Assembly: GCF_009857845.1 (NCBI RefSeq) | Contig: NZ_WWEQ01000020.1 | Span: forward strand, 1-51,728 | DNA: 51,728 nt | Direction: 5' to 3' | DNA from: Brevibacterium rongguiense | Lineage (GTDB): Bacteria > Actinomycetota > Actinomycetes > Actinomycetales > Brevibacteriaceae | Shown: one piece after another, positions 2,073 to 51,728 of the stretch | Position numbering within the stretch: the first letter of the stretch is position 1 | Layout: each line of letters starts with the position of its first letter | Notes under the pieces: model-generated | The model's input: the letters and a program-made list of their open reading frames with translations, nothing else | Told to the model about the DNA's origin: nothing | The model's database searches: none | Position numbers and translations under genes: made by a program

Positions 2073-3799
2073 TCGAATCGCTCACCATCGAGAACCTCGG
2101 CGTCATCGCCTCCTCCCACATCGACCTGGGCCCCGGCCTCACCGTCGTCACCGGCGAGACCGGCGCCGGCAAGACGATGTTCGTCACCGCGCTCGACCTG
2201 CTCACCGGCTCCCGGGCGGAGGCGCACATGGTCCGCGCCGGGGCCGAGCGAGCCGTCGTCGAGGGCGTCTTCTCCCTGGGCGGCGCGCCCGGGGTCGCCG
2301 AGCGCGTCGGCGAGGCCGGGGGCGAGGCCGACGATGAGGTCATCGTCGCCCGGGTGCTGCCCGCGGCCGGGCGCGCGCGGGCCACGGCGGGCGGGCGCAC
2401 CGTGCCGGTGGGGGTGCTCTCCGACATCGGCGCCGAGCTCGTGAGCATGCACGGCCAGAGCGAGCAGCTGACCCTGCGCCGGGCCGCGCGCCAGCGCGAG
2501 CTGCTCGACCGCTTCGGCGGCCCGCAGCTGGCCGCCGCGCTGGCCGACTACCGCGCCGATTTCGCCGCCTGGACGCGTCTGGAGAAGGAGAACGAGGAGC
2601 TGCGGGCCGGCGCCCAGGAGCGCGCGGCCCGCATCGCCTTCCTCGAGACGGCGCTTGAGGCCATCGAGGCCGTGCGCCCCGTCGCGGGCGAAGACGAACG
2701 GCTGCAGGCCCTCAGCGCCCGGCTGTCCGCGGCCGAGGAGCTCACCGCCGCCGTGGGCCGCGCCCACGACGGGCTGGTGGGCAGCGACTGGGACGAGGCG
2801 CCCAACGCCGTCGACCTCATCAACGCGGCGGCGGCCGAGGTGGGCCGCGCCGCCGAGCGCGATGCCTCCCTGGCCGAGGAGGCCGAGGCGATCACCGGGC
2901 TGGGCCTCCAGCTCGCCGACGCCGCCGAGCGGCTGGGCGGCTACCTCCAGGGCTTCGAGGAGCTCTCCGAGGTCTCCGTCGAGGACACGGAGTCCCGCCG
3001 CGCCGCCCTGGGCTCCCTGTCGGCCTACGGCGCCGACGTCGGCGCCGTCCTCGCGTTCGAGGAGCGCGCGGGCGCGGAGCTGCTGGCCCTGCGCGCCTCG
3101 GACGAGTCCCTCACCGACATGGACGAGCGCCTCACCGCCGCCCGCGCCGCCGTCGAGGCGTCCGGTGAGGTCCTGCGGGCCGCCCGCGGCGGGGCCGCCG
3201 AGGACTTCTCCGCCCAGGTCGCAGCGGAGCTCGCCGCGCTGTCCATGCCGAAGGCCGGTGTCGTGTTCGAGATCGAGCCGGCCGCCCCGCACGCGCTGGG
3301 CGCGGACACGGTGCGCATGCTCTTCTCCGCCCACTCCGCCACGCAGCCCGGCGACATCGGCAAGCTCGCCTCCGGCGGCGAGCTCTCCCGCGTCATGCTC
3401 GCGATCGAGGTCGTCATGGCCCGCACCGAGGCGTTCCCCACGTTCGTCTTCGACGAGGTCGACGCCGGCGTGGGCGGGCGCGCCGCCGGCGAGATCGGCC
3501 GCCGCCTCGCCCTGCTGGCCGAGCGCTCCCAGGTCATCGTCGTCACCCACCTCGCCCAGGTCGCCGCGTGGGCCGATCACCACATCACCGTCGTCAAGGA
3601 CGACGGTGGAGCGGGCGTGGTCTCCGGCGTCCGCGTGCTGGGCGAGGAGGAGCGCGAGGCCGAACTCGCCCGCATGCTCGGCGGCATGTCGGAGTCCGGG
3701 TCCGCGCGCGCCCACGCCCAGGAGCTCATGGCCACCGCCGCGCAGGCCAAGCGCGGGAGCGCGCAGCAGGTCGGCGGGGCACCGCAGCCGGGCAGCTGA
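2069..3799 (+). CDS. recN: DNA repair protein RecN
   Basis: RecN is an SMC-like ATPase acting in double-strand break repair. The 576-residue protein begins with the ABC head half carrying Walker A GETGAGKT at 29-36. A long charged coiled-coil region follows (about 150-400). The second head half has the signature LASGGELSR and Walker B TFVFDEVDAGVGG near residue 460, followed by the VVTHLAQVAAWAD switch region. The GTG at 2069 overlaps the nadK TGA. The reading frame stays open further upstream, but that part lies under nadK and is not conserved protein. Confidence 0.97.
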   Translation: MIESLTIENLGVIASSHIDLGPGLTVVTGETGAGKTMFVTALDLLTGSRAEAHMVRAGAERAVVEGVFSLGGAPGVAERVGEAGGEADDEVIVARVLPAAGRARATAGGRTVPVGVLSDIGAELVSMHGQSEQLTLRRAARQRELLDRFGGPQLAAALADYRADFAAWTRLEKENEELRAGAQERAARIAFLETALEAIEAVRPVAGEDERLQALSARLSAAEELTAAVGRAHDGLVGSDWDEAPNAVDLINAAAAEVGRAAERDASLAEEAEAITGLGLQLADAAERLGGYLQGFEELSEVSVEDTESRRAALGSLSAYGADVGAVLAFEERAGAELLALRASDESLTDMDERLTAARAAVEASGEVLRAARGGAAEDFSAQVAAELAALSMPKAGVVFEIEPAAPHALGADTVRMLFSAHSATQPGDIGKLASGGELSRVMLAIEVVMARTEAFPTFVFDEVDAGVGGRAAGEIGRRLALLAERSQVIVVTHLAQVAAWADHHITVVKDDGGAGVVSGVRVLGEEEREAELARMLGGMSESGSARAHAQELMATAAQAKRGSAQQVGGAPQPGS

Positions 3800-3839
3800 G
3801 GCGGCCCGCTCCCTCAGAGAGCGCTCAGGCGCCGCGTGG

Positions 3840-3845
3840 CACAAT
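3840..3845 (+). promoter_or_regulatory. -10 box for a probably leaderless steA transcript
   Basis: CACAAT ends 7 bp before the ATG at 3853, so transcription would start at or next to the start codon. The alternative ATG at 3844 lies inside this box and has no ribosome site. Confidence 0.5.
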
Positions 3846-3852
3846 GATCCCG

Positions 3853-4854
3853 ATGGACACACCTCCCCCCGAATCCGACCCGGTCGCGCAGATGCGCGCC
3901 GTGCGCGCGGCAGATGTCGCGCGCCGGCGCCGCCGCAGGATCGCCGAGCGCGCCGCCGCCGGGCGGGATTCCGGCGCGGGTCCGGGTGACGGAGCCCCGG
4001 CCGGCTCCACCGCCGCGGGCACCGGCGAGCGCGGCCCAGCCGGCGCCTCGGCGGCGGGCGACGGCTCCACCCGCACGAGCATGAACCGGGCCCTGGCCGG
4101 CCTCGTCGAGACGATGGCCGCGCACGAGCGCGAGGGCCGCGAGCTCGTCGCCGACGACCTCGAGCTGCCGCAGCTGCGGACCTCGTTCGAGGGCCGCCAG
4201 GCGCTCGTCGTCGTGCGCGGCCACCACTACAAGGAGGACCTCGCGATGCTGCGGTCCTACATCCGCGAGTACAAGCCCGTGCTCGTGGGCGTCGACGGCG
4301 GCGGCGACGCCCTCCTCGAGGCCGGCTACACCCCGGACCTCATCGTGGGCAACCTCGACGCGGTCTCCGATGCCGCTCTCAACACGAAGGCCGAGCTCGT
4401 CGTCCATCCGCGCGGCGGCGGGGGCGATGCCGGCGCGGCCCGGCTCGAGCACGCGAACCTCGACTTCGAGCGCGTCGAGGCGCCCGGCACGAACGAGGAC
4501 CTCGCCCTGCTCATGGCCGACACGCTGGGCGCGCAGATGATCGTGGCCGTCGGCACCAACGACACGTTCGTCGAGTTCGCCGACGGCGGGCGCTCGGACA
4601 TGGCCACGACGTTCCTCACCCGGCTGCGGGTGGGCTCCCGGCTCATCGACGCCAAGGGCGTCTCCCTGCTCTACCGCCGCAGCGTGGGCTCCTGGCAGCT
4701 CATCATCCTCGCCATCGCGGGCCTGCTCGCGGTCGCGGCGGCGCTCTTCGCCACCGCGGCCGGCCAGACCCTCATTGGCCTCATCGGCGCCCAGCTCGAC
4801 GGCTTCTTCGGCTGGGTCCACTCGCTCTTCGCCTCCGCACCCGCCAGCGAATAG
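3853..4854 (+). CDS. steA: SteA-like cytokinetic ring protein (thiamine pyrophosphokinase-like fold), short form
   Basis: SteA with SteB affects septation and envelope integrity in Corynebacterium. The conserved core spans about 110-290 of 333 residues (VVVRGHHYKEDL, VLVGVDGGGDALLEAGYTPD, AVGTNDTFVEF, TFLTRLRVGSRLIDAKGVS). A C-terminal hydrophobic helix (about 280-303) and a short tail follow. Residues 1-80 are Arg/Ala/Gly-rich low complexity, and the roughly 150-residue N-terminal domain normal in SteA is not seen. ATG 3853 is chosen for the leaderless promoter; ATG 3844 would add three residues. The order recN-steA-steB supports the call. Confidence 0.85.
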   Translation: MDTPPPESDPVAQMRAVRAADVARRRRRRIAERAAAGRDSGAGPGDGAPAGSTAAGTGERGPAGASAAGDGSTRTSMNRALAGLVETMAAHEREGRELVADDLELPQLRTSFEGRQALVVVRGHHYKEDLAMLRSYIREYKPVLVGVDGGGDALLEAGYTPDLIVGNLDAVSDAALNTKAELVVHPRGGGGDAGAARLEHANLDFERVEAPGTNEDLALLMADTLGAQMIVAVGTNDTFVEFADGGRSDMATTFLTRLRVGSRLIDAKGVSLLYRRSVGSWQLIILAIAGLLAVAAALFATAAGQTLIGLIGAQLDGFFGWVHSLFASAPASE

Positions 4855-4909
4855 CGGCCCACCCGCTCCGGCCCGCGCACCCACCGCCCAGACAAGGACG
4901 CAACCGCCC

Positions 4910-5842
4910 GTGATCGACTTCCGCTACCACCTCGTCTCCCTCATCTCCGTGTTCCTCGCCCTCGCGGTGGGCATCGTGCTGGGCGCGGGGCCGCTCAAGC
5001 AGCCCATCGGCGAATCGCTGCAGAGCCAGGTGGAGAGCCTGCGCACGGACCGCGACAAGCTGCGCGGCGAGCTCGACACCGCCCACGGCGATGTGCAGAA
5101 GCTCAACGACTTCGTCGTCGCCGAGGCGCCCAGCCAGCTGCGCGGGGCCCTCAAGGGCCGCACGGTGGCCGTCGTGCACGCCGCGGATGCGGATGCGGAC
5201 CAGCTCGCGGCGGTGCAGCAGCGGCTGCGGGAGGCGAACGCGAAGACGGTTGACGCCGGGGGGCTAACCGCCAAGACCTTCGCCTCCCAGGAGCGCGACG
5301 ACCTCGTCGCGAAGCTGCGCGAGCTCGACACCGCGCTGCCCAAGGACCCCGGGACCGCGCTGACGACCGCCCTGGCCAAGGCGCTGAGCGCCGAGCGCGG
5401 CTCGCAGCCCTACAGCGCCCAGACCGCCAAGGACGTGCTGACCGCGTTCCAGGACGCCGGCCGCTTCAAAGGCGGGCAGGCGCAGAAGGCCGATGCCGTC
5501 GTCTTCGTCGCCGGGGCGCAGACCGCCGCGCAGGACGAGGGGGCCACGCCCACCGCCGGGGCCGCACAGTCGATCCCGGAGGACCTCGTGGCCTTCGCCG
5601 CGGGCCTCGGCACCCGCATTGCCACGGTGGTCGAGGGCACCTCCGGCAACGCCTCCAGCGGCCTCGTCGCCACCCTGCGGGCGGACAACGCGGACGTGAC
5701 GACCACCGACGGCCTCGAACTGGGCGCGGGCCCCGTGATCGGCGCGCTCGCCGTCAAGGAGCGCCTCGCGACGAACAAGAACCAGGCGTACGGCTTCGCC
5801 GACGGCACCGCCTCCCTCGTCCCGGGCATCGCGAAGAGCTGA
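4910..5842 (+). CDS. steB: SteB / MctB family membrane-anchored protein (annotated copper transporter)
   Basis: This 310-residue protein begins VIDFRYHLVSLISVFLALAV, typical of the MctB family (Rv1698-like). One N-terminal membrane helix (about 7-26) is followed by a coiled coil (about 38-66) and a large extracytoplasmic Ala-rich domain. Mycobacterial MctB has been linked to copper export or tolerance, and corynebacterial SteB to cell division with SteA. The GTG at 4910 follows a 55-bp gap after steA; the open frame further upstream overlaps steA and is not conserved. The gene is likely in the steA operon. Confidence 0.9.
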   Translation: MIDFRYHLVSLISVFLALAVGIVLGAGPLKQPIGESLQSQVESLRTDRDKLRGELDTAHGDVQKLNDFVVAEAPSQLRGALKGRTVAVVHAADADADQLAAVQQRLREANAKTVDAGGLTAKTFASQERDDLVAKLRELDTALPKDPGTALTTALAKALSAERGSQPYSAQTAKDVLTAFQDAGRFKGGQAQKADAVVFVAGAQTAAQDEGATPTAGAAQSIPEDLVAFAAGLGTRIATVVEGTSGNASSGLVATLRADNADVTTTDGLELGAGPVIGALAVKERLATNKNQAYGFADGTASLVPGIAKS

Positions 5843-5858
5843 GGCCGAACAGCCGAGG

Positions 5859-5899
5859 CCGGGCGCGCGCCGCCCGCCCCCGGCGGCGGGTGCGCCCGG
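5859..5899 (+). terminator. GC-rich hairpin after steB
   Basis: CCGGGCGC at 5859-5866 pairs with GCGCCCGG at 5892-5899, and a second inner CGCC/GGCG pairing shortens the loop. There is no U-tract, as is usual in high-GC actinobacteria. Confidence 0.45.
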
Positions 5900-5949
5900 G
5901 ACCGCGGCCGGTGCGTCAGGGCCGGCGACCGGTGCGCCGGTGCCTGCCG

Positions 5950-5955
5950 TAAGGT
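5950..5955 (+). promoter_or_regulatory. Candidate -10 box for the glycosyltransferase-like gene
   Basis: TAAGGT matches TAnnnT and lies downstream of the steB hairpin. It leaves a leader of about 40 nt that carries AGGAAGAGG before ATG 6004. Confidence 0.4.
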
Positions 5956-6003
5956 AGGGCCAGACCGGCCGTGCACGGCCCGACACGCTGCAGGAAGAGG
6001 ACC

Positions 6004-7134
6004 ATGAGCTCACCCGACGCCGCGCTTGCCCTCGACGGGCGCACGCGCATCCTCCACGTCCTCACGAGCGCGCACACCGCCATCGGCGAGGTCGCCCGCG
6101 CCGCGATCGCAGCCCAGCTCGAGGCGGGCCTGGCCGTGGCCGTCGCCGCCCGGCCCGAGGTGCTCGCCGCGCTCGAGCTGCCGGCCTCCGAGCTGCTGCG
6201 CACCGTGCCGATCGCGGCCGCCCCCGGCGTGCGGCCCAGCGACGCCGAATCCGCGCTCGCCCTGCACAAGCGCTACCGCTTCGTCGACGTCGTCCACGCC
6301 CACGGCCTCCACGCCGCCGCACTCGCGGGCCTCGCGTGCACGGGACTGCCGCAGCGCCTGCGGCCCGCGCTCGTCGCGACGCTCGGCCACGACGAGCAGA
6401 CGGGGCCGATCGGGTCGCTCGAGGGCGCCGTCGTCGCCCGCACCGCCACCGCGGTGCTCGGCACCACCGAGCCCATCTGCGAGCACTACGAGGACCGCGT
6501 GCCCCTGGTGCGCCGGGCCCGCCTGCTGCGCTCCGAACTCGCCCGCGAGGTCGCCCCGCGGCTGAGCCGTGCCCGCGTGCGCGAGGACCTCGACGTCCCC
6601 GCCGGGGCCGTGCTCATCGCCGTGCCCGTGCGCATGGCCGACACCCCGGAGTTCACCGCGATCCTCGAAGCCGCCGCGCGGCTGCCCGAGGCGCGCGGCG
6701 ACCGGCGCTGGGTCGTGGCGTTCACCGGCGGCGGCCGCGCCGCGGACACCGTGGCCCGGGAGTTCCTGCCCCGCTTCGACCACCTGCGCGTCGAGCCCCA
6801 GGTCAGCACCGTGGACACCGCGGCGGCGGCGGACATCGTCGTGGCCGGGACGAAGCTGGGCGGCATCGACGCGGCCGGCCTCATGCAGCTGCGCCGGCCC
6901 GTGGTCTTCGTGGGCTCGGAGCAGGAGGCCCGGGTGTGGGGTCCCTCCATCCCGCGCGCGGCACCGGGGGACACCCGCGGGCTGCTGCACGAACTCGAGG
7001 AGCTCTCCGACCATCCGGCCCAGCGCGTCCAGGACGGCTTCGCCGCCCGCCGCCGGGTCGTCGCCGATGAGCGCTTCGACCCCGCCGCGCTCGACGACGT
7101 CTACGCGCGGGCGCGCATCGCCGCCGCCCTGTAG
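6004..7134 (+). CDS. Glycosyltransferase-like (GT-B fold) protein of unknown substrate
   Basis: The 376-residue protein starts with ILHVLTSAHTAIGEVARA, resembling the N-terminal lobe of family-4 glycosyltransferases. It has an HAHGLHAAALAG segment near 98 and a C-terminal lobe with LIAVPVRM and VAFTGGG. The classical E-x7-E donor-site motif is not evident, so it may be a degenerate or divergent transferase. A gene of this kind often sits between steB and pyrG in Micrococcales and Streptomyces, suggesting a conserved envelope role; that is inference. ATG 6004 follows a good ribosome site (GGAAGAGG, 5992-5999). Confidence 0.75.
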   Translation: MSSPDAALALDGRTRILHVLTSAHTAIGEVARAAIAAQLEAGLAVAVAARPEVLAALELPASELLRTVPIAAAPGVRPSDAESALALHKRYRFVDVVHAHGLHAAALAGLACTGLPQRLRPALVATLGHDEQTGPIGSLEGAVVARTATAVLGTTEPICEHYEDRVPLVRRARLLRSELAREVAPRLSRARVREDLDVPAGAVLIAVPVRMADTPEFTAILEAAARLPEARGDRRWVVAFTGGGRAADTVAREFLPRFDHLRVEPQVSTVDTAAAADIVVAGTKLGGIDAAGLMQLRRPVVFVGSEQEARVWGPSIPRAAPGDTRGLLHELEELSDHPAQRVQDGFAARRRVVADERFDPAALDDVYARARIAAAL

Positions 7135-23955: not shown

Positions 23956-25470
23956 TCAGTCCAGGGCGATCTCGCGCTTCTGGATCTTGCCCGTGGCGCC
24001 CTTGGGCAGCGCCTCGAGGAACCGGATGATGCGGGGGATCTTGTAGGCCGAGAGGCGCTCGCGGCAGAAAGCCTCGATCTCCGCGGCGGTGAGCTCGACA
24101 CCCGGCATGGGCGTGATCGCGGCGGCGACGATCTGACCGTAGTGCTCATCCGGCGAGCCGATGACCGCGGCCTCGAGGACGCCCGGGTGCTCGTAGAGGA
24201 CCTCCTCGATCTCCCGCGGGTAGACGTTGTAGCCGCCGTGGATGATCATCTCCTTGAGGCGGTCGACGATCGACAGGTAGCCGTCGGCGTCCTTGCTGCC
24301 CAGATCCCCGGTGCGGAACCAGCCGTCGGCGTCGATAGCCTCCGCCGTGGCCTCGGGGCGATTCCAGTAGCCGGCCATGACGATCGAGCCGCGCACGCAC
24401 ACCTCGCCGACCTCGTCCACGTCGGCGTCCGTGCCGTCGAGGGCCACGATCTTCGTCTCGATGTTGGGCAGGTCCGTGCCCACGGTGCCCGGCTTGATGA
24501 CGCCGTCCCAGCGGTTGAGGGTGGCCTGGGCGGTCGTCTCCGTGAGCCCATAGCCCTCCGCGATCCGCGCGCCGAAGCGCTCCTCGAAGCGGCGCATGAG
24601 GCCCACGGCGATCGAGGCGCCGCCGGACAGGGCGAACCGCAGGCTGGAGAAGTCGTACTCGCCCTCCGGCGCATGGGTGATGGCGTTCCACATCGTCGGC
24701 ACTCCCGCCACCAGCGTCAGCCGGTCGGTGTCCATCACCCTCATGAGCTCCACCGCATCGAAGCGGGGCAGCAGGGTGAGCTGGCCGCCGGCCGCGACGG
24801 CGCAGATGAGCACGGACGCCAGGCCGAACACGTGGAACAGGGGCAGGGCGGTGCCGGAGCGGTCGTCCGTCGTCAGGCCCGAGGCCTCGACGCCGTTGCG
24901 CCCGGAGTCCAGGAGGTTGCGCACCGTGAGCATGGCGCCCTTGGGCCGCCCGGTCGTGCCCGAGGTGTAGAGCAGTGTGGCTACGTGCTCGGCCGGCAGG
25001 CGGGCGGGGGAGAGGGCGCCCAGGTCCTCCCGTGCCGCGGCGGCGACGGACTCGGCGCCCACGGTCGTCAGCGCGGCGAACGGGATGCCCGCCTCGCGCG
25101 CGGCGGTCTCACCTGCCTCGGCCGTGGCGGGATGGGCGTGGATCGCGCTGGCCCCCGAGTCCGCGATGTAGTAGGCGAGCTCGCGCGGCGTGGACAGCGG
25201 GTTGACCGCGACCACCGTGAGGCCCGCGGCCTGGGCCGCGTAGTACTCGATGACGAACTCCGCCGTCGTGGGCGCGATGAGGATTACGCGCTCGCCCTGG
25301 GCGTAGAGCGCCGCGAGCTCCCGGGCGCGGGGCGCGATGAGCCCCGCCAGCTGCGCCCAGGTGAGCTCCAGGCGCGGCTCGCTGAGCGGCCCCCGCAGGA
25401 AGACCTCGTCCGGCCGGGTGCGCGCGTGCTCCAGCAGGGGGTCGATGAGGTTGTGAGAGCTCTGCTCCAC
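23956..25470 (-). CDS. Long-chain or medium-chain acyl-CoA ligase (AMP-binding)
   Basis: This adenylate-forming enzyme activates a carboxylic acid to its CoA thioester. The 504-residue protein has LLYTSGTTGRPKGAML (P-loop), GYGLTETTA, the TGDLG hinge region and the catalytic C-terminal lysine in LPKGATGKIQKREI. The start is GTG at 25470, with AAGGAG 4 nt upstream (plus-strand 25475-25480); an ATG at 25488 lies before that site and the longer open frame beyond it is not conserved. It is transcribed divergently from the SDR/acyl-CoA dehydrogenase operon and shares its control region. Confidence 0.93.
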   Translation of the reverse strand: MEQSSHNLIDPLLEHARTRPDEVFLRGPLSEPRLELTWAQLAGLIAPRARELAALYAQGERVILIAPTTAEFVIEYYAAQAAGLTVVAVNPLSTPRELAYYIADSGASAIHAHPATAEAGETAAREAGIPFAALTTVGAESVAAAAREDLGALSPARLPAEHVATLLYTSGTTGRPKGAMLTVRNLLDSGRNGVEASGLTTDDRSGTALPLFHVFGLASVLICAVAAGGQLTLLPRFDAVELMRVMDTDRLTLVAGVPTMWNAITHAPEGEYDFSSLRFALSGGASIAVGLMRRFEERFGARIAEGYGLTETTAQATLNRWDGVIKPGTVGTDLPNIETKIVALDGTDADVDEVGEVCVRGSIVMAGYWNRPEATAEAIDADGWFRTGDLGSKDADGYLSIVDRLKEMIIHGGYNVYPREIEEVLYEHPGVLEAAVIGSPDEHYGQIVAAAITPMPGVELTAAEIEAFCRERLSAYKIPRIIRFLEALPKGATGKIQKREIALD

Positions 25471-25535
25471 GATGCTCCTTCGGATCATGGGAGTGCCGAC
25501 GGCCCGGCGGGCCGCCGCGTCTTCCAATCTGGGCG

Positions 25536-25545
25536 AACGATTGTT
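25536..25545. promoter_or_regulatory. Near-palindrome in the divergent control region
   Basis: AACGATTGTT matches its reverse complement at 8 of 10 bases and sits between the ligase start and the SDR -35. It is a possible second operator for a TetR-type regulator, but the match is weak. Confidence 0.3.
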
Positions 25546-25554
25546 TGGTCTGAC

Positions 25555-25589
25555 TTGAAAACTCCGGTGCGGTCCACTATAGATAGTGG
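25555..25589 (+). promoter_or_regulatory. Promoter of the beta-oxidation operon with an operator palindrome over the -10
   Basis: TTGAAA (25555-25560) and TATAGA (25578-25583) are spaced by 17 bp. The palindrome CCACTAT-AG-ATAGTGG (25574-25589) has two perfect 7-bp arms and covers the -10 box, a classic repressor position. No regulator gene lies within the window near it. Confidence 0.75.
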
Positions 25590-25631
25590 TGAACCCGGTC
25601 ACAAGAACGGCAAGCGGAAGGCATCGCACGC

Positions 25632-41130: not shown

Positions 41131-41190
41131 GTTTCGCCGGTTGAGCCCGGTGCGCTCCCTTTGACGGGTGTACGGGGTCGACTTTCACCC

Positions 41191-41219
41191 TTGCGCCACA
41201 GAAAATCGAAGAGTATTAG
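41191..41219 (+). promoter_or_regulatory. Candidate promoter upstream of the HNH gene
   Basis: TTGCGC (41191-41196) and TATTAG (41214-41219) are 17 bp apart in an AT-richer stretch. An in-frame ATG at 41225 is close enough for a leaderless longer HNH protein. Confidence 0.4.
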
Positions 41220-41272
41220 TTCGCATGGGATTTACGGAGTCCTTTCCATGCTCTCGTGTCCGTGCCTCGTTC

Positions 41273-41278
41273 TATCCT
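41273..41278 (+). promoter_or_regulatory. Candidate -10 box closer to the HNH start
   Basis: TATCCT is a good TAnnnT box 63 bp before ATG 41342. The leader carries AGAGGGGGCGAG just before the start. Confidence 0.4.
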
Positions 41279-41341
41279 GGACCCACAGCCGAAACATCCA
41301 GTCGGCGGGGCCGGCGGACATGCGCAGAGGGGGCGAGTGGC

Positions 41342-44185
41342 ATGGCGGATCATCGGAATGCGGGCAGCGGAACCCCTGCGGGTCCCGGTGGTCCCAGACG
41401 CTCCGGCAGCCCCGGAGACGACCACCTCCGACCACAGGCCTACGATGCCGCTGTCTTCGCGGCGCTGGCCGAGGAAGCCACCGTCATCAGCACGCACAGC
41501 CTGCGCCGCATGCTCGGCCCCGGCCTCACGGCACTGCAGAGCATGGTCGACCACGGGGTGCTCCGCACCCTCGGCGTCGACGATGGTGCACTGCTCGATT
41601 CCTCCGGTGACTGCGCGGGGATCGGCGAGGTGTGCACGGGGTGCGGTCTGCTCGCCCCCGCTCCGGATGCGCACCGCTCATCCGACCAGGCGACTGGCCG
41701 CGGACTCGACTGCGTCGGAGTCGACGCTCCAGCTGTGGGGGCACCGACAGTCGATCGCACATGGAGAGCTCGGCCGGGCCCCGGAGGAGCCGAGGGGCAC
41801 GGTGGGTGTAGGGGTGAGGGCGCCGGTACACGTGAGGGGGCGGTGGGCCTCTGCCGCTGCCCGGTGGCGTCGCCGGCCGAGGAGCCTGTGACCGTCGAAC
41901 CGCGTCGTCTCTTCGACCTTCCCGGCCTCGGTGCCCCGGTCAGCCCGGTTCCCGACGACATTGCCTGGGCCGATGCGATCCCCGTGGATGCCGAGCTCAT
42001 TCCGGTTACGCGTATCACCCGCCTGCTCACCCTCCACGCGCCTGGTCGAGTCCCCGGCCAGCTCTACGACGGCGGGAAGCTGCGCTTGGGGATGACCGTG
42101 GGCGCGGTGCTCGACATCAGCGAATACTCTGCCCACCGGCTCATTGCCCAGGCGCTGACCGCGCTGCTCGGTCTGCCCCGCCTCGTGGCGCAGGTGCGGT
42201 GCGGGCTCATCGACTTCCGCAAGCTCGCACTCGCCGCGGACCTCGTAGGCGACTTCCCGCTGCTGCGGCTGCGGCGCATCGACCAGCAGTTGGCCGCCCT
42301 GCGCCCGAGCATGCGCCTTGCCGACTTCCGTCGGCACCTCGTGCGACTCGTCGCAGCGGCCCAGGATCCGACGGAGCTGGCCGAGCTCGCGCGCAGCCGG
42401 CGGCGCGTCGAATACAGGCCGCAGGCGGACGGGACCGCCGTACTCTCGCTCATCGGCCCCAGTGCCGAACTCGACGCGCTGCATCGGCGCCTCTACGCGG
42501 TTGCACGGGCCGTGCGGCGCAGCGAACTCGGTGCGTTCGGCCAGCAGGTGCCGCCCGGGGTGCGCGTCATCGATGAGCGCAGCCTCGACCAGCTCTGCTT
42601 CGACATGCTCTCCTCGTATCTGCCGCAGGTGAGTGTGCAGGCCGTGCTCCCCATCGAAGCGGGAGCCAGTGCCGGCGCTGCTGCATCCCGCGGGTTCCGT
42701 CCCGCCGCTGCCGCTGATGACGCGCGTGCGCATCGCACCGCTTCGCACCTGCAGCGCGAGTCCGGGGCCTCCGGGAGGCTGCAGTGCGTCCCCGGTACGG
42801 GCAACGGGGACACGGCTCGCGGACACCCCGCACCCGGCACCGGAGCGGCGCAGGCGGTTCACCCTCCGAGCGAGGTGGATGGTCACGGGGCCGGCCCCGC
42901 CGGGTCCCGAGTGCCCGACTCTCACACCCAGGATGCCCACGAGCAGGGTGTGCGAACGCAATCCGGTTCGCCGCGAGTTCCGGGGCCCATTGACTGCCCG
43001 CACGACGGTAGCTGTCCGCATCGCGCCTGCGGGCCCGGCATCGCAGAAGGAGCTGGGAGAGGTGCCGACGAAGGTGGTACCTGCAACCGTTGCAGCGCGA
43101 TGAGCAGGGAAAACAGGCCGGGAGTTCCCTGGCAGGGGCGCAGTGTGCCCACTGTCCGGGCACGCGACCAACTGGACCGACCGGACCGGTCGGACAGGCC
43201 AGGTCGACCAGACCGGTCGGACAGGCCTAACGGGACAGGTGTGCCGGATGAGGCAGGCGGGCCGTTCGGGGCAGACGAACCGGATGGGCCAGGTTGGCCG
43301 GGTGGATCCAACGGATCGGTCGGGCTGGACGGCAGCACGGTCGACGGTGAGGCCGGACAGCTCGTCACCCTCACGCTCACGTGCCCGACGAACACGCAAT
43401 GGCTGCGCGCCCAGGCTCGGGTCGCTCTCACCGTCCCGGCACTCACCGCCCTCGGACTCAGCGAGCTGCCCGGAGAGCTCGCAGACGGGGCGCCCGTGCC
43501 GGCGGATGCCGTGCGCCGGATCCCCGGTGGCCTCGATTCGGTGGTCCGCATCCTCACGGATCCCGTCGACGGCCACGTGCTCGATGCCGCAGCGCGCACC
43601 TACGCGATCCCGGCGCCCATGCGCACGGCCATCGAGGCGAAGTGGCAGCACTGCACGGCACCCGGTTGCTCACGACGGGCCGGATCCTGCGAGCTCGACC
43701 ATCGGGTTCCGTTCGACCACGAGAATCCCGGTTCCGGTGGGCGCACCGACTTCGAGAACCTCCATCCGCTGTGCAAGCGGCACCACCAGATGAAGACCGA
43801 CGACAGGCTCGTGCCGACGAGGACCGCTGAGGGCATGCTCGCCTGGAGCCTCAACGGTGGGATCTCCGCGGTCACCGAGGTTCCCGGCAACCCTGTGTCG
43901 GCCCAGCACGCGAGCGAATTCACGGCCCTCCTCACTGCGCTCGCTGAACCCAGCGGAACGGTCGGAGAGGGCGCGGACGGCAGGGTCGGGGCGGAGTGCG
44001 AACGAGATGCGGCAGCGGGCCACGATGTTCGCCTCGGGAGCACCGGTCAGCTCAGAAGCGGTGGTCGGCCCAGGAGCGGTGGTCACCTCGGAGGCGGCAG
44101 CGACCGCGGGGCCAGTGGTCGTCCCGGGGGCAGTGGTCATCCCGGAAGCGCTGAGACGCCCCACGTCGAGCCTCCGCCCTTTTGA
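41342..44185 (+). CDS. DUF222 / HNH endonuclease with a long low-complexity insert
   Basis: The 947-residue protein has a DUF222 domain (about 215-435: RLGMTVGAVLDISEYSAHRL, LIDFRKLALAADLVGD) and a C-terminal HNH nuclease. The nuclease motif is CELDHRVPF with His787, then GGRTDFENLHPLCKRHHQMK, a complete HNH site. Family members are usually 400-600 residues. The excess is an insert at about 440-665 and a Gly/Ser-rich tail of 80 residues. The insert includes a 27-bp repeat (43184-43227) giving DRPDRSDRPGRPDRSDRP. Such genes are multi-copy in actinobacteria, often mobile or recombination-prone; the role is unknown. ATG 41225 is an alternative start. Confidence 0.88.
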   Translation: MADHRNAGSGTPAGPGGPRRSGSPGDDHLRPQAYDAAVFAALAEEATVISTHSLRRMLGPGLTALQSMVDHGVLRTLGVDDGALLDSSGDCAGIGEVCTGCGLLAPAPDAHRSSDQATGRGLDCVGVDAPAVGAPTVDRTWRARPGPGGAEGHGGCRGEGAGTREGAVGLCRCPVASPAEEPVTVEPRRLFDLPGLGAPVSPVPDDIAWADAIPVDAELIPVTRITRLLTLHAPGRVPGQLYDGGKLRLGMTVGAVLDISEYSAHRLIAQALTALLGLPRLVAQVRCGLIDFRKLALAADLVGDFPLLRLRRIDQQLAALRPSMRLADFRRHLVRLVAAAQDPTELAELARSRRRVEYRPQADGTAVLSLIGPSAELDALHRRLYAVARAVRRSELGAFGQQVPPGVRVIDERSLDQLCFDMLSSYLPQVSVQAVLPIEAGASAGAAASRGFRPAAAADDARAHRTASHLQRESGASGRLQCVPGTGNGDTARGHPAPGTGAAQAVHPPSEVDGHGAGPAGSRVPDSHTQDAHEQGVRTQSGSPRVPGPIDCPHDGSCPHRACGPGIAEGAGRGADEGGTCNRCSAMSRENRPGVPWQGRSVPTVRARDQLDRPDRSDRPGRPDRSDRPNGTGVPDEAGGPFGADEPDGPGWPGGSNGSVGLDGSTVDGEAGQLVTLTLTCPTNTQWLRAQARVALTVPALTALGLSELPGELADGAPVPADAVRRIPGGLDSVVRILTDPVDGHVLDAAARTYAIPAPMRTAIEAKWQHCTAPGCSRRAGSCELDHRVPFDHENPGSGGRTDFENLHPLCKRHHQMKTDDRLVPTRTAEGMLAWSLNGGISAVTEVPGNPVSAQHASEFTALLTALAEPSGTVGEGADGRVGAECERDAAAGHDVRLGSTGQLRSGGRPRSGGHLGGGSDRGASGRPGGSGHPGSAETPHVEPPPF
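43184..43227 (+). repeat. 27-bp direct repeat inside the HNH gene insert
   Basis: The 17-bp core GACCGGTCGGACAGGCC occurs at 43184-43200 and 43211-43227, one 27-bp period apart, within a longer GACCGR-rich stretch. Confidence 0.8.
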
Positions 44186-45481: not shown

Positions 45482-47242
45482 TCAGCCGACCTGCGGCAGC
45501 GGCGGCAGTTCGGCTGCGAAGAGCCAGGGGGTGAGAGCCTCGCGCGCCTCGGCTCCCGCGCGCTCCTCGACGAGGCCGAGGAAGTCATCGGTAATGACGT
45601 TGCCGAGCCGGTAGCGCGCCGTCCACTCGCGCAGCAGGCCGAAGAACGCTTCGTCGCCCACGGCGGCGCGCAGCGCATGCAGCGTGAGTGCACCGCGCTT
45701 GTAGACCTCATCGTCGAACATGTCGTCGGGCCCCGGATTGGCGAGGACACCGCTGGCTGCCTGGGAAGGCTCCGCCCGGGGCGAACCCGCATCTCCGGCG
45801 GTGGCGCTCATCGTGCCTTTCGCACCGCCGGTGGATTCAACGCCGCCCTCGGAACCAGCGCCACCTGCGGAAGGACCCAAACCAGCGGAACTGTCCCCGC
45901 CGTCGGAACCGGCGCTACCCGCGGAACCGGCCCCGCCGTCGGAACCTGCTGGACGACCGGCACCGCGTGCTCCGCGTGCCCCCTCGGTCACGTCGCTCCC
46001 CTCGCGAACCCCCGCATCCGGGTCGCCAGCGCCGCCTGCGCCGCCTGAGCTACCTGCGCCGTCTGCACCGCCAGCACTACCAGCGCTGTCTGCATCCTCA
46101 GCGCCAACCGACCCGCTCGCGTCCGCACCGCGTGCCCCCGCCGCGCGGGAGACGATGCCGCCGACGGCCTCGCCCACCCGCTCGGCCGCGCGCCGGAGGA
46201 ACCCCGGCCGCAGCGAGTCGTAGTGCGCCTTGGCCTGCTCATCGGCCGAACCTCGCTCCGAGGCCTCGGACCACAGCCACTCGGCGTAGCAGGCGAAGCC
46301 CTCGTTGAGCCAGATGTCGCGCCAACGGGCGGGCGTGACGGAGTTGCCGAACCACTGATGGGCCAGCTCGTGGGCCACCAGCCGCTCGGCCTGCCACGTG
46401 CGGTGGAGGTGATTGGGGCCCAGGATGGACAGCGGCTGGGACTCCAGCGGGATGTCCAGCACGTCATCGGTGACGACGACCCCGTACGCGTCGAACGGGA
46501 ACGGGCCGAAGCGCTCCTCGAACGCGCGCATCATGCCGTGCTGACGGCTCAGGGCCCGCTCCGCGTGCGCCCACCGCTCCGGCGGGCACGCCAGGCGCAG
46601 CGGCACGCGAGAGACATCAGAGCCCGCGGGGGCGGGAATCTCGCCGCGCCGATACCGGCCGATCTGCATGGTCGCCAGGTAGGTTGCCACCGGCACATCG
46701 GAGCGCCACGTCCACTGCGTGCGCCCGGCCTTGCGCCGCTCGCCCACGAGCTCGCCGTTCGAGATCGCGGTGTACTCCGACTCGACGAGGATGGAGATCT
46801 GGAACGTCGCCTTGTCCGAGGGATGGTCGTTGCAGGGGAACCACGTCGCGGCGCCATTGGGCTGGCCCGCCACGAGCACCCCGTCCTCGAGCTCCTCCCA
46901 GCCCACATCGCCCCACGTGCCCATCGCGGGCTCCGGATTGCCCGAGTAGTAGACGTCGAGCGCGAACTCCTGACCCTCCTTGAGCGCCTTCCCCGGGCGA
47001 AGCACGAGCTTCGAGCCCACCGTCTTGTAGCGGCAGCGCTGGCCGTCGAACTGGGCGCGATCGCAGCGCAGGCCCACGAAGTCCAGCTCGATGGCATCCG
47101 CAGCGGCGCGCATGACACCGCGCAGCGTGGCGTGCCCGCTCAGCCGATTGGGCACGATCCGGTAGTCGAGGACGAGCTCGTAGTGGTCGATGCGCACGGC
47201 GGCGGTGCCGGATTCGGGGGTATACGGGTCGAGCACTGTCAT
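45482..47242 (-). CDS. M1 family zinc metallopeptidase (aminopeptidase) with a low-complexity insert
   Basis: The 586-residue cytoplasmic-type peptidase has no signal peptide. It has the N-terminal beta domain (1-210), the substrate-site segment DIPLESQPLSILG in place of GAMEN, and the zinc site HELAHQ near 288 with WLNEGFACYAEW about 20 residues later. The catalytic tyrosine in DDEVYKRGALTLHALR (near 508) is separated from the zinc site by an insert of about 130 Gly/Ala/Ser/Asp residues (about 365-495). ATG 47242 follows AAAGGA at a rather long 13 nt. It lies 66 bp downstream of the NRPS on the same strand, so both are probably one operon. Removal of terminal residues from the NRPS product is a reasonable guess. 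Confidence 0.9.
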   Translation of the reverse strand: MTVLDPYTPESGTAAVRIDHYELVLDYRIVPNRLSGHATLRGVMRAAADAIELDFVGLRCDRAQFDGQRCRYKTVGSKLVLRPGKALKEGQEFALDVYYSGNPEPAMGTWGDVGWEELEDGVLVAGQPNGAATWFPCNDHPSDKATFQISILVESEYTAISNGELVGERRKAGRTQWTWRSDVPVATYLATMQIGRYRRGEIPAPAGSDVSRVPLRLACPPERWAHAERALSRQHGMMRAFEERFGPFPFDAYGVVVTDDVLDIPLESQPLSILGPNHLHRTWQAERLVAHELAHQWFGNSVTPARWRDIWLNEGFACYAEWLWSEASERGSADEQAKAHYDSLRPGFLRRAAERVGEAVGGIVSRAAGARGADASGSVGAEDADSAGSAGGADGAGSSGGAGGAGDPDAGVREGSDVTEGARGARGAGRPAGSDGGAGSAGSAGSDGGDSSAGLGPSAGGAGSEGGVESTGGAKGTMSATAGDAGSPRAEPSQAASGVLANPGPDDMFDDEVYKRGALTLHALRAAVGDEAFFGLLREWTARYRLGNVITDDFLGLVEERAGAEAREALTPWLFAAELPPLPQVG

Positions 47243-47308
47243 GCGCGGGTGCCGCGTCCTTTCGCTGGGTGCGGGCCGGCCGCACGGAAGGGTGGGGATA
47301 GGGGAATG

Positions 47309-50300
47309 CTACGCGCCGGGCGGCGCAGGGGGCTCCGCAGCCGAGGCGCGGGACGGCGCAGCGGCATCGGGCGCGGGGCCGTGTGCTGCAGAGGCTGCGC
47401 GCCCATGAGCGGGGCTCGGCTGCTCCTCGTGGGCAGGCGCCTCGCGCGCGACCGCGTCCCGCGCATCCTCGGCCGCCAGCGGGGCATCGAGCCACGGGAC
47501 CACGGGGTTGCCGGTGAAGTACGCGTGCGGCGGAACGAACTCGCCGCGCATGACGAGCGAGGCGGGCCCCACGGTGGCCGAGCGGCCCAGCTGGGCCGCC
47601 GGGAGGATGACGCTGTTGGGCCCCAGCGTGGAGCCCTCGTCCAGGGTGACCGAGTCGAGCGCCATGACCCGGTCGTGGAAGAGGTGGGTCTGGACGACGC
47701 AGCCCCGGTTGACGGTCGAGTTGTCACCCAGCTCCACGAGGTCGGCCTCGGGCAGCCAGTAGGTCTCGCACCACACCCCGTGGCCGATCTTCGCACCGAG
47801 GGCCCGCAGGTACCAGACGAGGGCGGGCGTGCCGACGGCCGTGCGCGCGAACCAGGGCGCGGTGATGAGCTCGACGAACGTGTCGGCCACCTCGTTGCGC
47901 CAGATGAAGGCCGACCAGAGGGGGTGCTCACCGGTCCGGATGGGCCCGACGAACAGCCACTTCGCCGCGACCGCGATCCCCGCGGCAACCGCACCGGCGG
48001 CCATCATGACGAGGCCGGAGAGGACGGCGGCGAAGAGCGCGGCGCCGAGCCCGCCTGGCCGGCCGGTGAGCTGCCCGCCGGCCCCGAGCAGCCAGCACAG
48101 GGCCAGGAGAACCCCGGAGACGAGCACCCCCTCCACGGCGACTGCGAGCAGGCGCAGCGTCTCCCACGCCCCGCGGGCCGCGCGCAGCCGGGCCGGCGGC
48201 GCGTACGTGAGCGACTCATCGGCGGCCACCTCGCTGCGGCGCAGCTCCACCGGCGGCGAGCCGATCCACGATGAGCCCTTGCGCGACTTCCTGGGCGCGG
48301 CGGAGAGCACCGCGACGAGCGCGTTCTTGGGCACGCGGCGCCCGGCGGCGGTGATGCCCGAATTGCCCAGGAAGGCCCGCTTGCCCACCTTCGCCCGGCC
48401 GATGCGCATCCAGCCGCGGCCCATCTCGTACGAGGCGACCATCGTGTCGTCGGCGAGGAATGCGCCGGCGGCGATCTGCGTCATCTTCGGCACGAGCAGC
48501 ACGGTCGAGGCCTCGACACCGCGGCCCACCCTGGCGCCCAGCAGCCGCAGCCACACGGGGGTGATGAGGCCCGCGTAGAGCGGGAAGAGCAGGTCGCGGG
48601 CCATGTCCATGACCCGCTCGGTGGCCCAGATCCGGTAGCCCATGGCCGAGCGGACGGGGAACTCGCCCTCGCGCAGCCCGGCCCCCAGCGCCCGCACGAC
48701 CGCGAGGATGAGCAGCGCGGTGCACGCAAACCACGCGAGCGCCTGGAACGGCGCCCACGCGAGCAGCGCCAGCGGCCGGGTGGCGACCTCGGGCCCGGAG
48801 ACGGCGACCATGAGCGCGAGCCCCGGCACGGCCGCAAGGTAGGGGATCGTCGCCTGCCCCAGCGAGCCGAGCGCGTAGAGGAGGAACGGGGCGTGGCGGC
48901 GCGTGCGCGGGGGCGGCGGCCAGTGACGACGCGCCTTGCCCACCCGCACCGCCGGCGAGCCGGAGTACACCTGGTTCTTGCGCACCTTCCCGGTGACCGC
49001 AGAACCGGGTTCCACATGGGCCCCCGCGCCCACCTGCGCGCCGGGCATGAGCGTGGAGCGGGCTCCCACGGTGGCGCCGCGGCCCACCCGGATCGCGCCG
49101 ATGCGCAGCAGGTCGCCGTCGACCCACCAGCCGCGCAGATCGACCTCCGGCTCGATCGCCGCACCCGCCTCCAGCGTGAGCAGGCCGGTCACCGGGGGCA
49201 CGGAGTGCAGGTCCACGCCGGGCCCCACCCGGTTGCCCAGCAGCCGGGAGTACCAGGTCACCCACGGTGCGCTCGCGACGGACACCGCGGCGGCGAGGTC
49301 CGCGATGTGTTCGGCGAGCCACAGGCGCAGGTGCACCCCGCCCGAGCGCGGATAGACACCCGGGCCCACCCCGGCCAGCAGCGCCCGGGCCACGCCGGCG
49401 GAGACGAGCATGCGCCCCCAGGGCGTGACGAACGCGGCGAAGAGGGCCAGCGTGAGCCAGCCCGGTGCGGTGGGCACGCGGGCGCCCAGCAGGGCCGCGG
49501 CCTCGAGGACGAGGAAGGCGATGACGAGCCAGCGCATGCCCGCGAGGATGTGGACGGGAATCCCGAGCAGGGTCTGCAGGGCCTGCATCGAGCGCTTCGT
49601 GCGCACCACGGTGCGCGCGGCCCGGGCCGCCGGGGCCTGTGATTCCGCGCCCAGGCACAGGTCGACGAGCGCGCCGAAGCGCGGGTGGGCGTAGACGTCG
49701 CCGACGGTCACGGCCGAGTGCCGGGCGCGCAGCCGCGAGACGAGCTGCGCGGCCGCGAGCGAGCCCCCGCCGGCGGAGAAGAAGTCGGTCGCCTCCCCGG
49801 GGACGGCCCCGAGCACCGCCGCCCACTGCTGCGCGATCCACTCGGCCTCCGGGGGCAGCGGGCTGCCGTCCGCCGGCTCGGCCGCGGCGGCACCGGGCAG
49901 CGGCCACGGCAGGGCGGCGCGGTCGACCTTGCCCGAGGTCTTCGTCGGCAGCTCGTCGACGAGCGCCAGGCGCGGCACGAGCGCGGGCGGCAGGGACTCG
50001 CGCAGCCGCGCGGCCCAGCCCTCGATCGCCGCCTCCGCCTGCGGGCTGCCGGCGGACGCGCCCAGGGCGGGGTCGTCCGGGGCGAGGTAGCCGATGAGCA
50101 GCTGCGTGCCGCCCGGGGTGGACTTCACCGCGGCGGCGGCCCCGCGCACGTCCGGCAGGGCCTGCAGCGCGGCATCGACCTCGCCCAGCTCGATGCGCCG
50201 GCCCCCGAGCTTCACCTGCTCGTCCGCGCGGCCAACGAACAGCAGCCCCGCCGGGTCGTTGACGACGATGTCGCCGGAGCGGTACGCCCGCTCCCAGCCC

Positions 50301-51451
50301 AGCGACGCCATGGGCGCGTACTTCTCCGCATCCTTGGCCGGATCGAGGTAGCGCGCCAACCCGGCGCCGCCGATGATGAGCTCACCGGAGGCGCCCTCGG
50401 GCACCGGGAAGCCCGTGGCGGGGTCGACGATCGCGAGGCTCCAGCCGCGCAGCGGCAGCCCGATGCGCACGGGTCCCGCACCCAGCTGTGCGGCGCACGC
50501 GACGACCGTGGCCTCGGTGGGCCCGTAGGTGTTCCACACCTCGCGCTCACCGTCGGCCAGGCGGGCCGCGAGCTCGGGCGGGCACGCCTCGCCGCCGAAG
50601 ATGAGCAGGCGCACCGAGTCGAGCGTCTCGGCCGGCCACAGCGCGGCCAGCGTCGGCACGGTGGACACGATCGTGATGCGGCGGCTGGCCAGCCACGGGC
50701 CCAGGTCCATCCCGGACTTCACGAGCGCCCGCGGGGCCGGGACGAGGCAGGCACCGTGGCCCCAGGCCAGCCACATCTCCTCGCAGCTCGCGTCGAAGGC
50801 GACGGACAGGCCGGCGAGCACGCGGTCGCCCGGCCCGATCGGATCCTCGGCGAGGAAGAGCTCCGCCTCCGCAGCGACGAACGCGGCCGCCGAGGCGTGC
50901 GAGACGGCCACGCCTTTGGGCTTGCCGGTAGAGCCCGAGGTGAAGATGATCCAGCAGTCGTCGTCCGGCCGCGGCTCGCGCAGGGCCGGCGGCGCGGTGC
51001 GCTCCGCCCGGCTCTCGATGGCAAGGCCAGGGAAGCCGGGCACCGACTGGGCCCCCGCGCTCGCGCCGGGTGCGCCCTCGGGGCCCATGATGACCGCTGC
51101 CACCGCGGCCTCGCCGAAGACCGTCGCTGCGCGCTCCTCCGGATCATCCACGTCGACCGGCACATAGGCCGCCCCGATCATGAGCGCGCCGAGGATCGCG
51201 GTGTAGAGCTCGGCGGTGCCGCTGGGCACGCGCACGCCCACCCGGTCGCCGGGGCCCACGCCCGCGGCGTTGAGGGCGAGCCCGACGTCGCGCACCTGCG
51301 CGATGAGCTCTTCGTAGCTGAGCACGCGCCGCCCGTCGTCGAGCGCCGGGGCGTGCGGGTGCGCGGCCGTCGTGGCGAGGAGGATGTCGATGAGGGTGCG
51401 GGGAGGGCCGGCGAGCGGCGCGGCGGGGAACTGCGGGGGATGAACGGTCAC
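47309..51451 (-). CDS. Pls/PosA family membrane NRPS (poly-amino-acid synthetase type)
   Basis: The 1380-residue single-module synthetase has an adenylation domain (about 20-520: IIFTSGSTGKPKG near 168, AFDASCEEMWLAWGHGA, YRSGDIVVNDPAG, LPTKTSGKVDRAALP). A carrier domain follows with phosphopantetheine Ser564 (DFFSAGGGSLAAAQL). The C-terminal half has six membrane helices (about 632-655, 664-693, 853-885, 893-917, 1098-1125, 1133-1160) that divide three hexapeptide-repeat, acyltransferase-like domains. This is the layout of epsilon-poly-lysine synthetase Pls (A-T-TM-C1-TM-C2-TM-C3, about 1,320 residues), with no thioesterase. The monomer cannot be read. GTG 51451 is the start; GAAAG is a weak ribosome site. 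Confidence 0.92.
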   Translation of the reverse strand: MTVHPPQFPAAPLAGPPRTLIDILLATTAAHPHAPALDDGRRVLSYEELIAQVRDVGLALNAAGVGPGDRVGVRVPSGTAELYTAILGALMIGAAYVPVDVDDPEERAATVFGEAAVAAVIMGPEGAPGASAGAQSVPGFPGLAIESRAERTAPPALREPRPDDDCWIIFTSGSTGKPKGVAVSHASAAAFVAAEAELFLAEDPIGPGDRVLAGLSVAFDASCEEMWLAWGHGACLVPAPRALVKSGMDLGPWLASRRITIVSTVPTLAALWPAETLDSVRLLIFGGEACPPELAARLADGEREVWNTYGPTEATVVACAAQLGAGPVRIGLPLRGWSLAIVDPATGFPVPEGASGELIIGGAGLARYLDPAKDAEKYAPMASLGWERAYRSGDIVVNDPAGLLFVGRADEQVKLGGRRIELGEVDAALQALPDVRGAAAAVKSTPGGTQLLIGYLAPDDPALGASAGSPQAEAAIEGWAARLRESLPPALVPRLALVDELPTKTSGKVDRAALPWPLPGAAAAEPADGSPLPPEAEWIAQQWAAVLGAVPGEATDFFSAGGGSLAAAQLVSRLRARHSAVTVGDVYAHPRFGALVDLCLGAESQAPAARAARTVVRTKRSMQALQTLLGIPVHILAGMRWLVIAFLVLEAAALLGARVPTAPGWLTLALFAAFVTPWGRMLVSAGVARALLAGVGPGVYPRSGGVHLRLWLAEHIADLAAAVSVASAPWVTWYSRLLGNRVGPGVDLHSVPPVTGLLTLEAGAAIEPEVDLRGWWVDGDLLRIGAIRVGRGATVGARSTLMPGAQVGAGAHVEPGSAVTGKVRKNQVYSGSPAVRVGKARRHWPPPPRTRRHAPFLLYALGSLGQATIPYLAAVPGLALMVAVSGPEVATRPLALLAWAPFQALAWFACTALLILAVVRALGAGLREGEFPVRSAMGYRIWATERVMDMARDLLFPLYAGLITPVWLRLLGARVGRGVEASTVLLVPKMTQIAAGAFLADDTMVASYEMGRGWMRIGRAKVGKRAFLGNSGITAAGRRVPKNALVAVLSAAPRKSRKGSSWIGSPPVELRRSEVAADESLTYAPPARLRAARGAWETLRLLAVAVEGVLVSGVLLALCWLLGAGGQLTGRPGGLGAALFAAVLSGLVMMAAGAVAAGIAVAAKWLFVGPIRTGEHPLWSAFIWRNEVADTFVELITAPWFARTAVGTPALVWYLRALGAKIGHGVWCETYWLPEADLVELGDNSTVNRGCVVQTHLFHDRVMALDSVTLDEGSTLGPNSVILPAAQLGRSATVGPASLVMRGEFVPPHAYFTGNPVVPWLDAPLAAEDARDAVAREAPAHEEQPSPAHGRAASAAHGPAPDAAAPSRASAAEPPAPPGA

Positions 51452-51621
51452 GGCAGGCTTTCGTGGGGTGCGTGAGAGCGGAATCGGCGCAGAGCGGGCC
51501 GCGGGCCGCGGCCGTGGACGACAATGGTCATGACGATGGTACGTCGAAACCGGGACTGCCCGGACCGCCGCCGGTGGGCCGGGGCTGGCGGGTGTGATCG
51601 GCTGCCGGTGGGAGGGTGCGA
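51452..51621. promoter_or_regulatory. Divergent control region between the NRPS and the right-edge gene
   Basis: The 170 bp contain ACAATGGT (51521-51528) and ACGATGGT (51533-51540), a 12-bp-spaced direct repeat around the palindrome GTCATGAC (51527-51534). TACCAT read on the minus strand (51541-51536) is a possible NRPS -10. A GGGCCGCGG-rich block lies at 51506-51525. No firm -35 is seen. Confidence 0.35.
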
Positions 51622-51728
51622 ATGCGCTGGTGGGCGGGGCATGACGGGGACGCCGAGGCGCGCCTGCGTGCGCTTGCCGCCCGCGCGTGGGGCGCGGGCC
51701 GGGCGGGCATCGCGCACACCGCCGGCCC
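51622..51728 (+). CDS. N-terminus of an unidentified protein (3' partial), possibly a phosphopantetheinyl transferase
   Basis: ATG 51622 has a strong ribosome site GGAGGG (51611-51616) 5 nt upstream, and the frame stays open to the window edge. The 35 residues begin MRWWAGHDGDAEARL. A Trp-Trp near the start and an Arg/Ala-rich first helix occur in 4'-phosphopantetheinyl transferases, which would suit a gene divergent from a carrier-domain synthetase. The visible part is too short to identify the family. Without the rest, the call is a lead only. Confidence 0.55.
   Translation, partial: MRWWAGHDGDAEARLRALAARAWGAGRAGIAHTAG

Follow-up and report, generated by a model that had tools for sequence, protein, structure and literature searches.

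The stretch of DNA considered here (the window) is the entire contig C92, 51728 bases long, of a 179-contig draft genome (3.12 Mb, 99% complete) of Brevibacterium rongguiense. At its right end lies a locus comprising the gene of a Pls-type synthetase, the gene of a M1 zinc peptidase following it on the same strand, and the 5' end of a divergent gene (Table 1). The gap of 66 bases between the first two genes, both on the (-) strand, agrees with the original prediction as judged from ORF coordinates. As the window corresponds to the whole contig, it is the end of the assembled contig, and not the choice of window, that truncates the right-edge gene. Further to the left, a 1005-aa ORF (41168-44185) combines a HNH endonuclease domain with long low-complexity stretches. 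Other AMP-binding genes of the contig were discarded as candidates, i.e., a group at 32-36 kb adjoining thiolase, acyl-CoA dehydrogenase and biotin carboxylase genes and having no carrier domain, and the gene at 23959-25629 (-), a stand-alone ligase equally devoid of a carrier domain. No RNA element was found in the window by Rfam at gathering score, and a defence role was set aside, neither the synthetase nor the M1 protein matching PADLOC at E <= 0.001.

Table 1. Features of the pls locus in the window, with the basis of each assignment.
Feature	Position	Strand	Basis and remarks
pls, predicted Pls-type epsilon-poly-L-lysine synthetase; layout A-T-C1-C2-C3 with membrane helices	47309..51451	(-)	1380 aa, GTG start; TIGR02353, PDB 7wew_A match
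Adenylation domain, aa ~29-514, pocket DAESIGTVVK	49910..51367	(-)	PF00501; AMP-binding_C below curated cut-off
Thiolation (carrier) domain, phosphopantetheine Ser564	49658..49843	(-)	PF00550; Ser564 in GGGS motif
Membrane-embedded condensing part at the C-terminus, with three acetyltransferase-like domains in tandem	47501..49582	(-)	TIGR02353, mutual domain similarity
PldII-like M1 zinc peptidase, 586 aa	45482..47242	(-)	PF01433/PF17900, HEXXH-18-E, conserved position after pls
M1 zinc-binding motif HELAH...E, aa 291-314	46301..46372	(-)	
147-residue G/A/S/D-rich M1 insert, approximate place	45758..46210	(-)	Absent from 31/31 relatives
5' end of divergent gene, probably Sfp-type phosphopantetheinyl transferase	51622..51728	(+)	Inferred from C148 piece and alignment with congener PPTases
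Intergenic region between pls and divergent gene, 170 bp, presumed to hold both promoters	51452..51621		Function presumed from coordinates

The synthetase, initially described as a single-module A-T enzyme of the Pls/PosA type, proved to match TIGR02353 ("Pls/PosA family") over the full length of the model (aa 624-1317 of the protein, model 1-695/695) with 645.5 bits against a cut-off of 423.1. Pfam recognises AMP-binding (aa 29-367), PP-binding (aa 537-598) and a Hexapep stretch (aa 788-821), with neither a C nor a TE domain among the matches, and the whole presents the organisation of Pls, namely an A-T module followed by three acetyltransferase-like domains together with membrane helices. 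Two details of the original prediction stand in part. The three C-terminal domains called hexapeptide-type are indeed three and mutually related (blastp E 1.7e-12, 1.3e-9 and 8e-6), but Pfam calls the hexapeptide in one of them. Similarly, the count of six membrane helices fits a Kyte-Doolittle scan, in which five hydrophobic clusters are clear and one more, at aa 659-677, is weaker (score 1.28), but this weak cluster, the second helix, is not independently proven; hydropathy peaks as high are also present in the soluble adenylation domain. The nearest solved structure by sequence is 7wew_A, a 509-aa chain of epsilon-poly-L-lysine (epsilon-PL) synthase (E 9e-187).

At what we take to be the ten pocket positions, assigned from motifs following GrsA numbering, the adenylation domain is identical to that of the Streptomyces albulus epsilon-PL synthase (7wew_A) at 10/10 positions. 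The same code, DAESIGTVVK, occurs in 30 of the 31 canonical relatives (L069-L099), the A domain of the remaining one (L092) being cut off by a contig end, as well as in all of 80 named loci, the highest-ranking among at least 584. According to PMC10522769, code position 2 is Ala in lysine-activating members of the family, Phe in the PDAP/PDAB enzymes and Met in the enzyme for ornithine; in the window, it is Ala and not the Met of PosA. Given this residue and the identity with the S. albulus enzyme, lysine is the predicted monomer and epsilon-PL the predicted product. None of the three outcomes named beforehand as refuting the original prediction was observed, the pocket code being that of a known enzyme of this kind, and the "cationic or other homopolymer" first proposed is narrowed to a specific prediction of epsilon-PL.

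The peptidase is classified as PldII-like from its M1 domain, its zinc motif and the position of its gene after pls. Among 32 pls-linked M1 proteins, including that of the window, HEXXH-18-E is intact in all and IPLE(S/A) invariably replaces GXMEN, the motif of classical M1 aminopeptidases. A hydrophobic segment was found in the first 60 residues of none of these 32 proteins, so that classical export is not expected. The window's protein stands out by the distance from the zinc-binding Glu to the MFDD block, i.e., 193 residues vs 45 or 46 in 31/31 relatives. The difference corresponds to an in-frame insert of some 147 residues, flanked by conserved blocks, with a high content of Gly, Ala, Ser and Asp and with degenerate 9/18/27/36-bp repeats in the underlying DNA. 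Such an insert could impair the peptidase. By sequence, the closest solved relative is PDB 6a8z/6iff ("Zinc metalloprotease, putative"; E 1.7e-57), the best stretch of the match being limited to aa 3-332; its chain of 474 aa resembles in length the insert-free pls-linked M1 proteins (434-491 aa).

The pairing of both genes is a conserved trait, as the original prediction had supposed. Within the genus, TIGR02353 was matched above the cut-off in 28 of the 36 congeners searched, one of which (G031) has a diverged synthetase, and the M1 gene comes next downstream of canonical pls in 27/27 Brevibacterium genomes vs 0/9 with a PldII-type M1 among the remaining congeners (the eight without Pls plus G031), where distant M1 relatives alone were recovered (best E 1e-8 to 1e-17). 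The 80 named loci, being the top-ranking ones among at least 584, are biased to close relatives and do not represent independent cases; in 79 of them, the M1 gene lies downstream of pls in the same orientation and no more than 1.5 kb away, namely within 0.13 kb in 75 and at 0.62-0.67 kb in four; at L151 (Tsukamurella), it lies about 2.2 kb downstream. The pair is also annotated on a Kitasatospora plasmid record. Next to pls on plasmid pROB01 of Rhodococcus opacus B4 (L187), no M1 gene is annotated within 6 kb in a gene table that describes itself as incomplete; MarR and response-regulator genes lie upstream of this pls.

Regarding the right-edge gene, which runs off the contig after 35 codons, it had been suggested that it could encode the phosphopantetheinyl transferase (PPTase) activating the synthetase. 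The genome contains two matches to PF01648, i.e., an AcpS-like protein on contig C119 and a Sfp-type piece on contig C148, the latter (43.2 bits, with GIDIE and WxxKE motifs) having its 5' part missing at the contig end. This piece resembles the PPTases encoded divergently to pls in several congeners, with identities of 56% over 112 aa (G003), 50% over 117 aa (G032) and 48% over 121 aa (G016), and of about 40% for G004 and G026. The N-terminal part absent from C148 aligns, by eye and with no statistic attached, with roughly the first 28 residues of the edge peptide. The search for the full gene has yielded a complementary PPTase piece ending a contig, and a Sfp-type PPTase gene probably begins at the right edge, as had been suggested, with the join to C148 drawn across a contig gap. 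As for its possible clients, PF00550 matches twice in the genome at E <= 0.001, in Pls and in a protein on contig C168 that is presumably an acyl carrier protein; Pls is the sole recognised NRPS carrier in the genome, bearing in mind that diverged carriers would escape PF00550. Two further observations concern contig C148. A gene of an OpgC/Acyl_transf_3 membrane acyltransferase (L106:1-1044, (+)) adjoins the PPTase piece, and the latter bears a low-complexity C-terminal extension absent from four aligned congener PPTases; in this it is comparable to the insert of the peptidase, and a tendency of the species to low-complexity expansions is conceivable.

The association of a PPTase gene with pls was surveyed with a purpose-built profile (E <= 1e-6) in the ORFs of the fetched stretches around pls. 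It was detected in 35 of the 80 named loci, 28 with WxxKE and seven without, the best-domain scores being poor at L133 (8.4) and L185 (7.1), in 7/31 canonical loci of L069-L099 (L071, L072, L082, L089, L091 at about 5 kb from pls, L097 and L098) and in two of the five diverged loci of L100-L104 (L102 and L104). G032 is also positive, the 5' end of its pls being located with the PPTase gene on another contig (L192). When PF01648 was searched in 39 genomes bearing such named loci, 22 of them profile positives, 19/22 had a match inside the pls coordinate range, judged by eye and with contig identity assumed, leaving L133, L163 and L186 as profile calls that may be false; L144, an in-range match by number alone on a short, AcpS-sized frame, was not counted. 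As to orientation, 5/27 congeners (G003, G004, G016, G026 and G032) have the gene upstream of pls and divergent from it, at a distance of up to about 0.6 kb. It is also divergent upstream in two Micrococcaceae loci, but in other families it is mostly convergent and downstream of the peptidase, as in many Micrococcaceae and Microbacteriaceae. Since the loci are related and partly contig-cut, the linkage is a tendency, not a rule. It was not found in a full-text literature search, which weakly hints that it is unreported.

A different neighbourhood characterises diverged members of the family. A HGSNAT/DUF418 membrane acetyltransferase adjoins the diverged synthetase at L100 (G031), L101 (G045) and L102 (the second copy of G020), and such a neighbour is also annotated for two Rhodococcus plasmid synthetases (L193 and L194; 31 and 32% identity), the only rows of such low identity among the 20 matches listed; none is found at the diverged loci L103 (broken-up pieces on a 7.7-kb contig) and L104 (G041), hence 5/7 diverged loci examined. 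The HGSNAT family being common (54/59 genomes), it is position that counts and not presence, and in 116 pls loci scanned the sole occurrence besides these three diverged loci is a partial match about 3 kb upstream at L099. A PldII-type M1 was recovered at none of the seven diverged loci, by tblastn or annotation. HGSNAT enzymes acetylate amines across a membrane, which makes acetylation or capping of the polymer, instead of its hydrolysis, a testable idea; the diverged HGSNAT-linked synthetases are perhaps a branch acetylating its own polymer. At L102, the second copy contains an internal TGA and is followed on the same strand by the HGSNAT-type gene and a PPTase gene. At L101, the synthetase (2689-6636) has the pocket DFEYNGTVTK, whose second residue, Phe, is the one given for PDAP/PDAB enzymes in PMC10522769, and a M1-domain gene lies convergently downstream.

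Much of this has precedents. Pls in Brevibacterium and a Pls-peptidase operon in Corynebacterium are known already, and the locus is in that respect mostly ordinary; what is added here consists of the probable PPTase at the right edge, the 147-residue M1 insert and HGSNAT beside diverged synthetases. Degradation of epsilon-PL in S. albulus is attributed chiefly to PldII (PMC9223678). The S. albulus Pls and PldII share with the Brevibacterium pair the domain order, the pocket code and a tandem peptidase gene on the same strand, but pldII overlaps pls by 4 bp and is coupled to it (PMC4361855) where 66 bp separate the two genes here, PldII is placed outside the membrane (PMC9223678) vs no export signal in the present M1 proteins, and the probable divergent PPTase gene and the peptidase insert are further differences. 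The Pls-peptidase operon of Corynebacterium variabile (Jiang et al., 2021; PMC8117764) is of the same family, from a host group including Brevibacterium, and of the same operon kind; a PPTase neighbour is not mentioned in the Results and Discussion of that paper. According to the same source, C. variabile pls expressed in Streptomyces coelicolor led to epsilon-PL, no epsilon-PL was detectable in culture of C. variabile or of C. glutamicum expressing its Pls, and the majority of Brevibacterium isolates examined have Pls. The view of an organism not known for such a polymer thus needs qualification: Pls genes of Brevibacterium are in print, but the Results and Discussion of PMC8117764 present no epsilon-PL production by a Brevibacterium. 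A Brevibacterium genome paper of 2025 also lists an epsilon-PL cluster (PMC12467314).

Three other explanations deserve weighing, of which a different cationic isopeptide polymer, i.e., delta-poly-ornithine, gamma-poly-diaminobutyrate or beta-poly-diaminopropionate, is the least probable. TIGR02353 is named for Pls and PosA jointly, and pocket codes are a prediction and not a proof; the pocket, however, is that of the lysine enzyme at all ten positions, and PosA, the delta-poly-L-ornithine synthetase of Acinetobacter baumannii and a member of the same synthetase family, is reported to read DMEHNGTVSK, with PDAP/PDAB enzymes further set apart by Phe at position 2 (PMC10522769). The gene context points the same way, the peptidase distinguishing Pls from the three other synthetases compared by Jiang et al. 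(2021; PMC8117764). The main text of the PosA paper contains no word beginning with "peptidase" (PMC10522769). A non-lysine product was accordingly rejected on the pocket code, and epsilon-PL retained as the predicted product.

It is also unlikely that the locus is decayed or silent, with synthetase and peptidase as relics and the latter broken by its low-complexity insert. The lengthened M1 loop, unmatched in 31/31 relatives, would suit such an explanation, as would the lack of Pls above the cut-off in 8/36 congeners and the internal stop in one congener's second, diverged copy. Both frames, however, are open from start to stop, which at this high G+C is weak evidence alone, the pocket, carrier and zinc-motif residues are all kept, and the insert sits in frame between conserved blocks. 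A little less probable still is that the right-edge ORF is an unrelated short frame and that the truncated PPTase of C148 belongs elsewhere. The visible part of the ORF is 35 residues long, of which the last seven are scattered by the aligner; alone, this peptide gives weak tblastn matches, and the best of them (E 0.001), at L071, is not in the reading frame of the PPTase. The ends of C92 and C148 do not overlap (longest shared word, 10 bases), no ORF of C148 beyond the PPTase matches the fetched pls regions of G003, G016 and G032, and 22/27 congeners, some contig-cut, have no divergent PPTase within 1 kb of pls. Against this stand the complementarity of the two pieces, C148 wanting just the N-terminal part with which the edge residues align, and its identity to the divergent PPTases of three congeners, which favour a split PPTase gene.

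We are highly confident that the locus encodes a pair for epsilon-PL synthesis and breakdown, i.e., Pls with a PldII-type M1, a reading that brings together the domain layout, pocket identity, conserved pairing and intact zinc motif of the locus itself with papers on homologues, in which Pls polymerises lysine and PldII hydrolyses epsilon-PL. The adenylation domain would activate L-lysine and load it onto the carrier domain, the phosphopantetheine arm of which would be attached by the Sfp-type transferase, probably the product of the divergent gene beginning at 51622. The three tandem membrane-anchored domains would then link lysines via their epsilon-amino groups, and the resulting chain, short and cationic, would leave the cell. 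The PldII-type M1 would hydrolyse epsilon-PL; as it has neither a signal peptide nor a membrane segment, its most likely substrate is intracellular polymer, in self-protection or recycling and perhaps in setting chain length. We infer that the strain makes epsilon-PL and that the right-edge gene encodes the transferase priming Pls, keeping in mind that such a locus may be silent, as C. variabile and C. glutamicum with its Pls gave no epsilon-PL.

With slightly less than an even chance of being correct, the synthetase, the degrading peptidase and a dedicated PPTase would form a self-contained three-gene epsilon-PL cassette, to which the PPTase was joined at two different places, the M1 insert being a species-specific tether or spacer. 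Since Pls is the only recognised NRPS carrier here, the sole Sfp-type enzyme found would serve one polymer. Epsilon-PL, a natural antimicrobial polymer, is produced with Streptomyces and has approval as a food preservative. For the transfer of such a Pls to a new host, the PPTase link points to a candidate for co-expression; as the product in S. coelicolor came without a PPTase mentioned as added, however, priming is only one possible cause of the failure in C. glutamicum.
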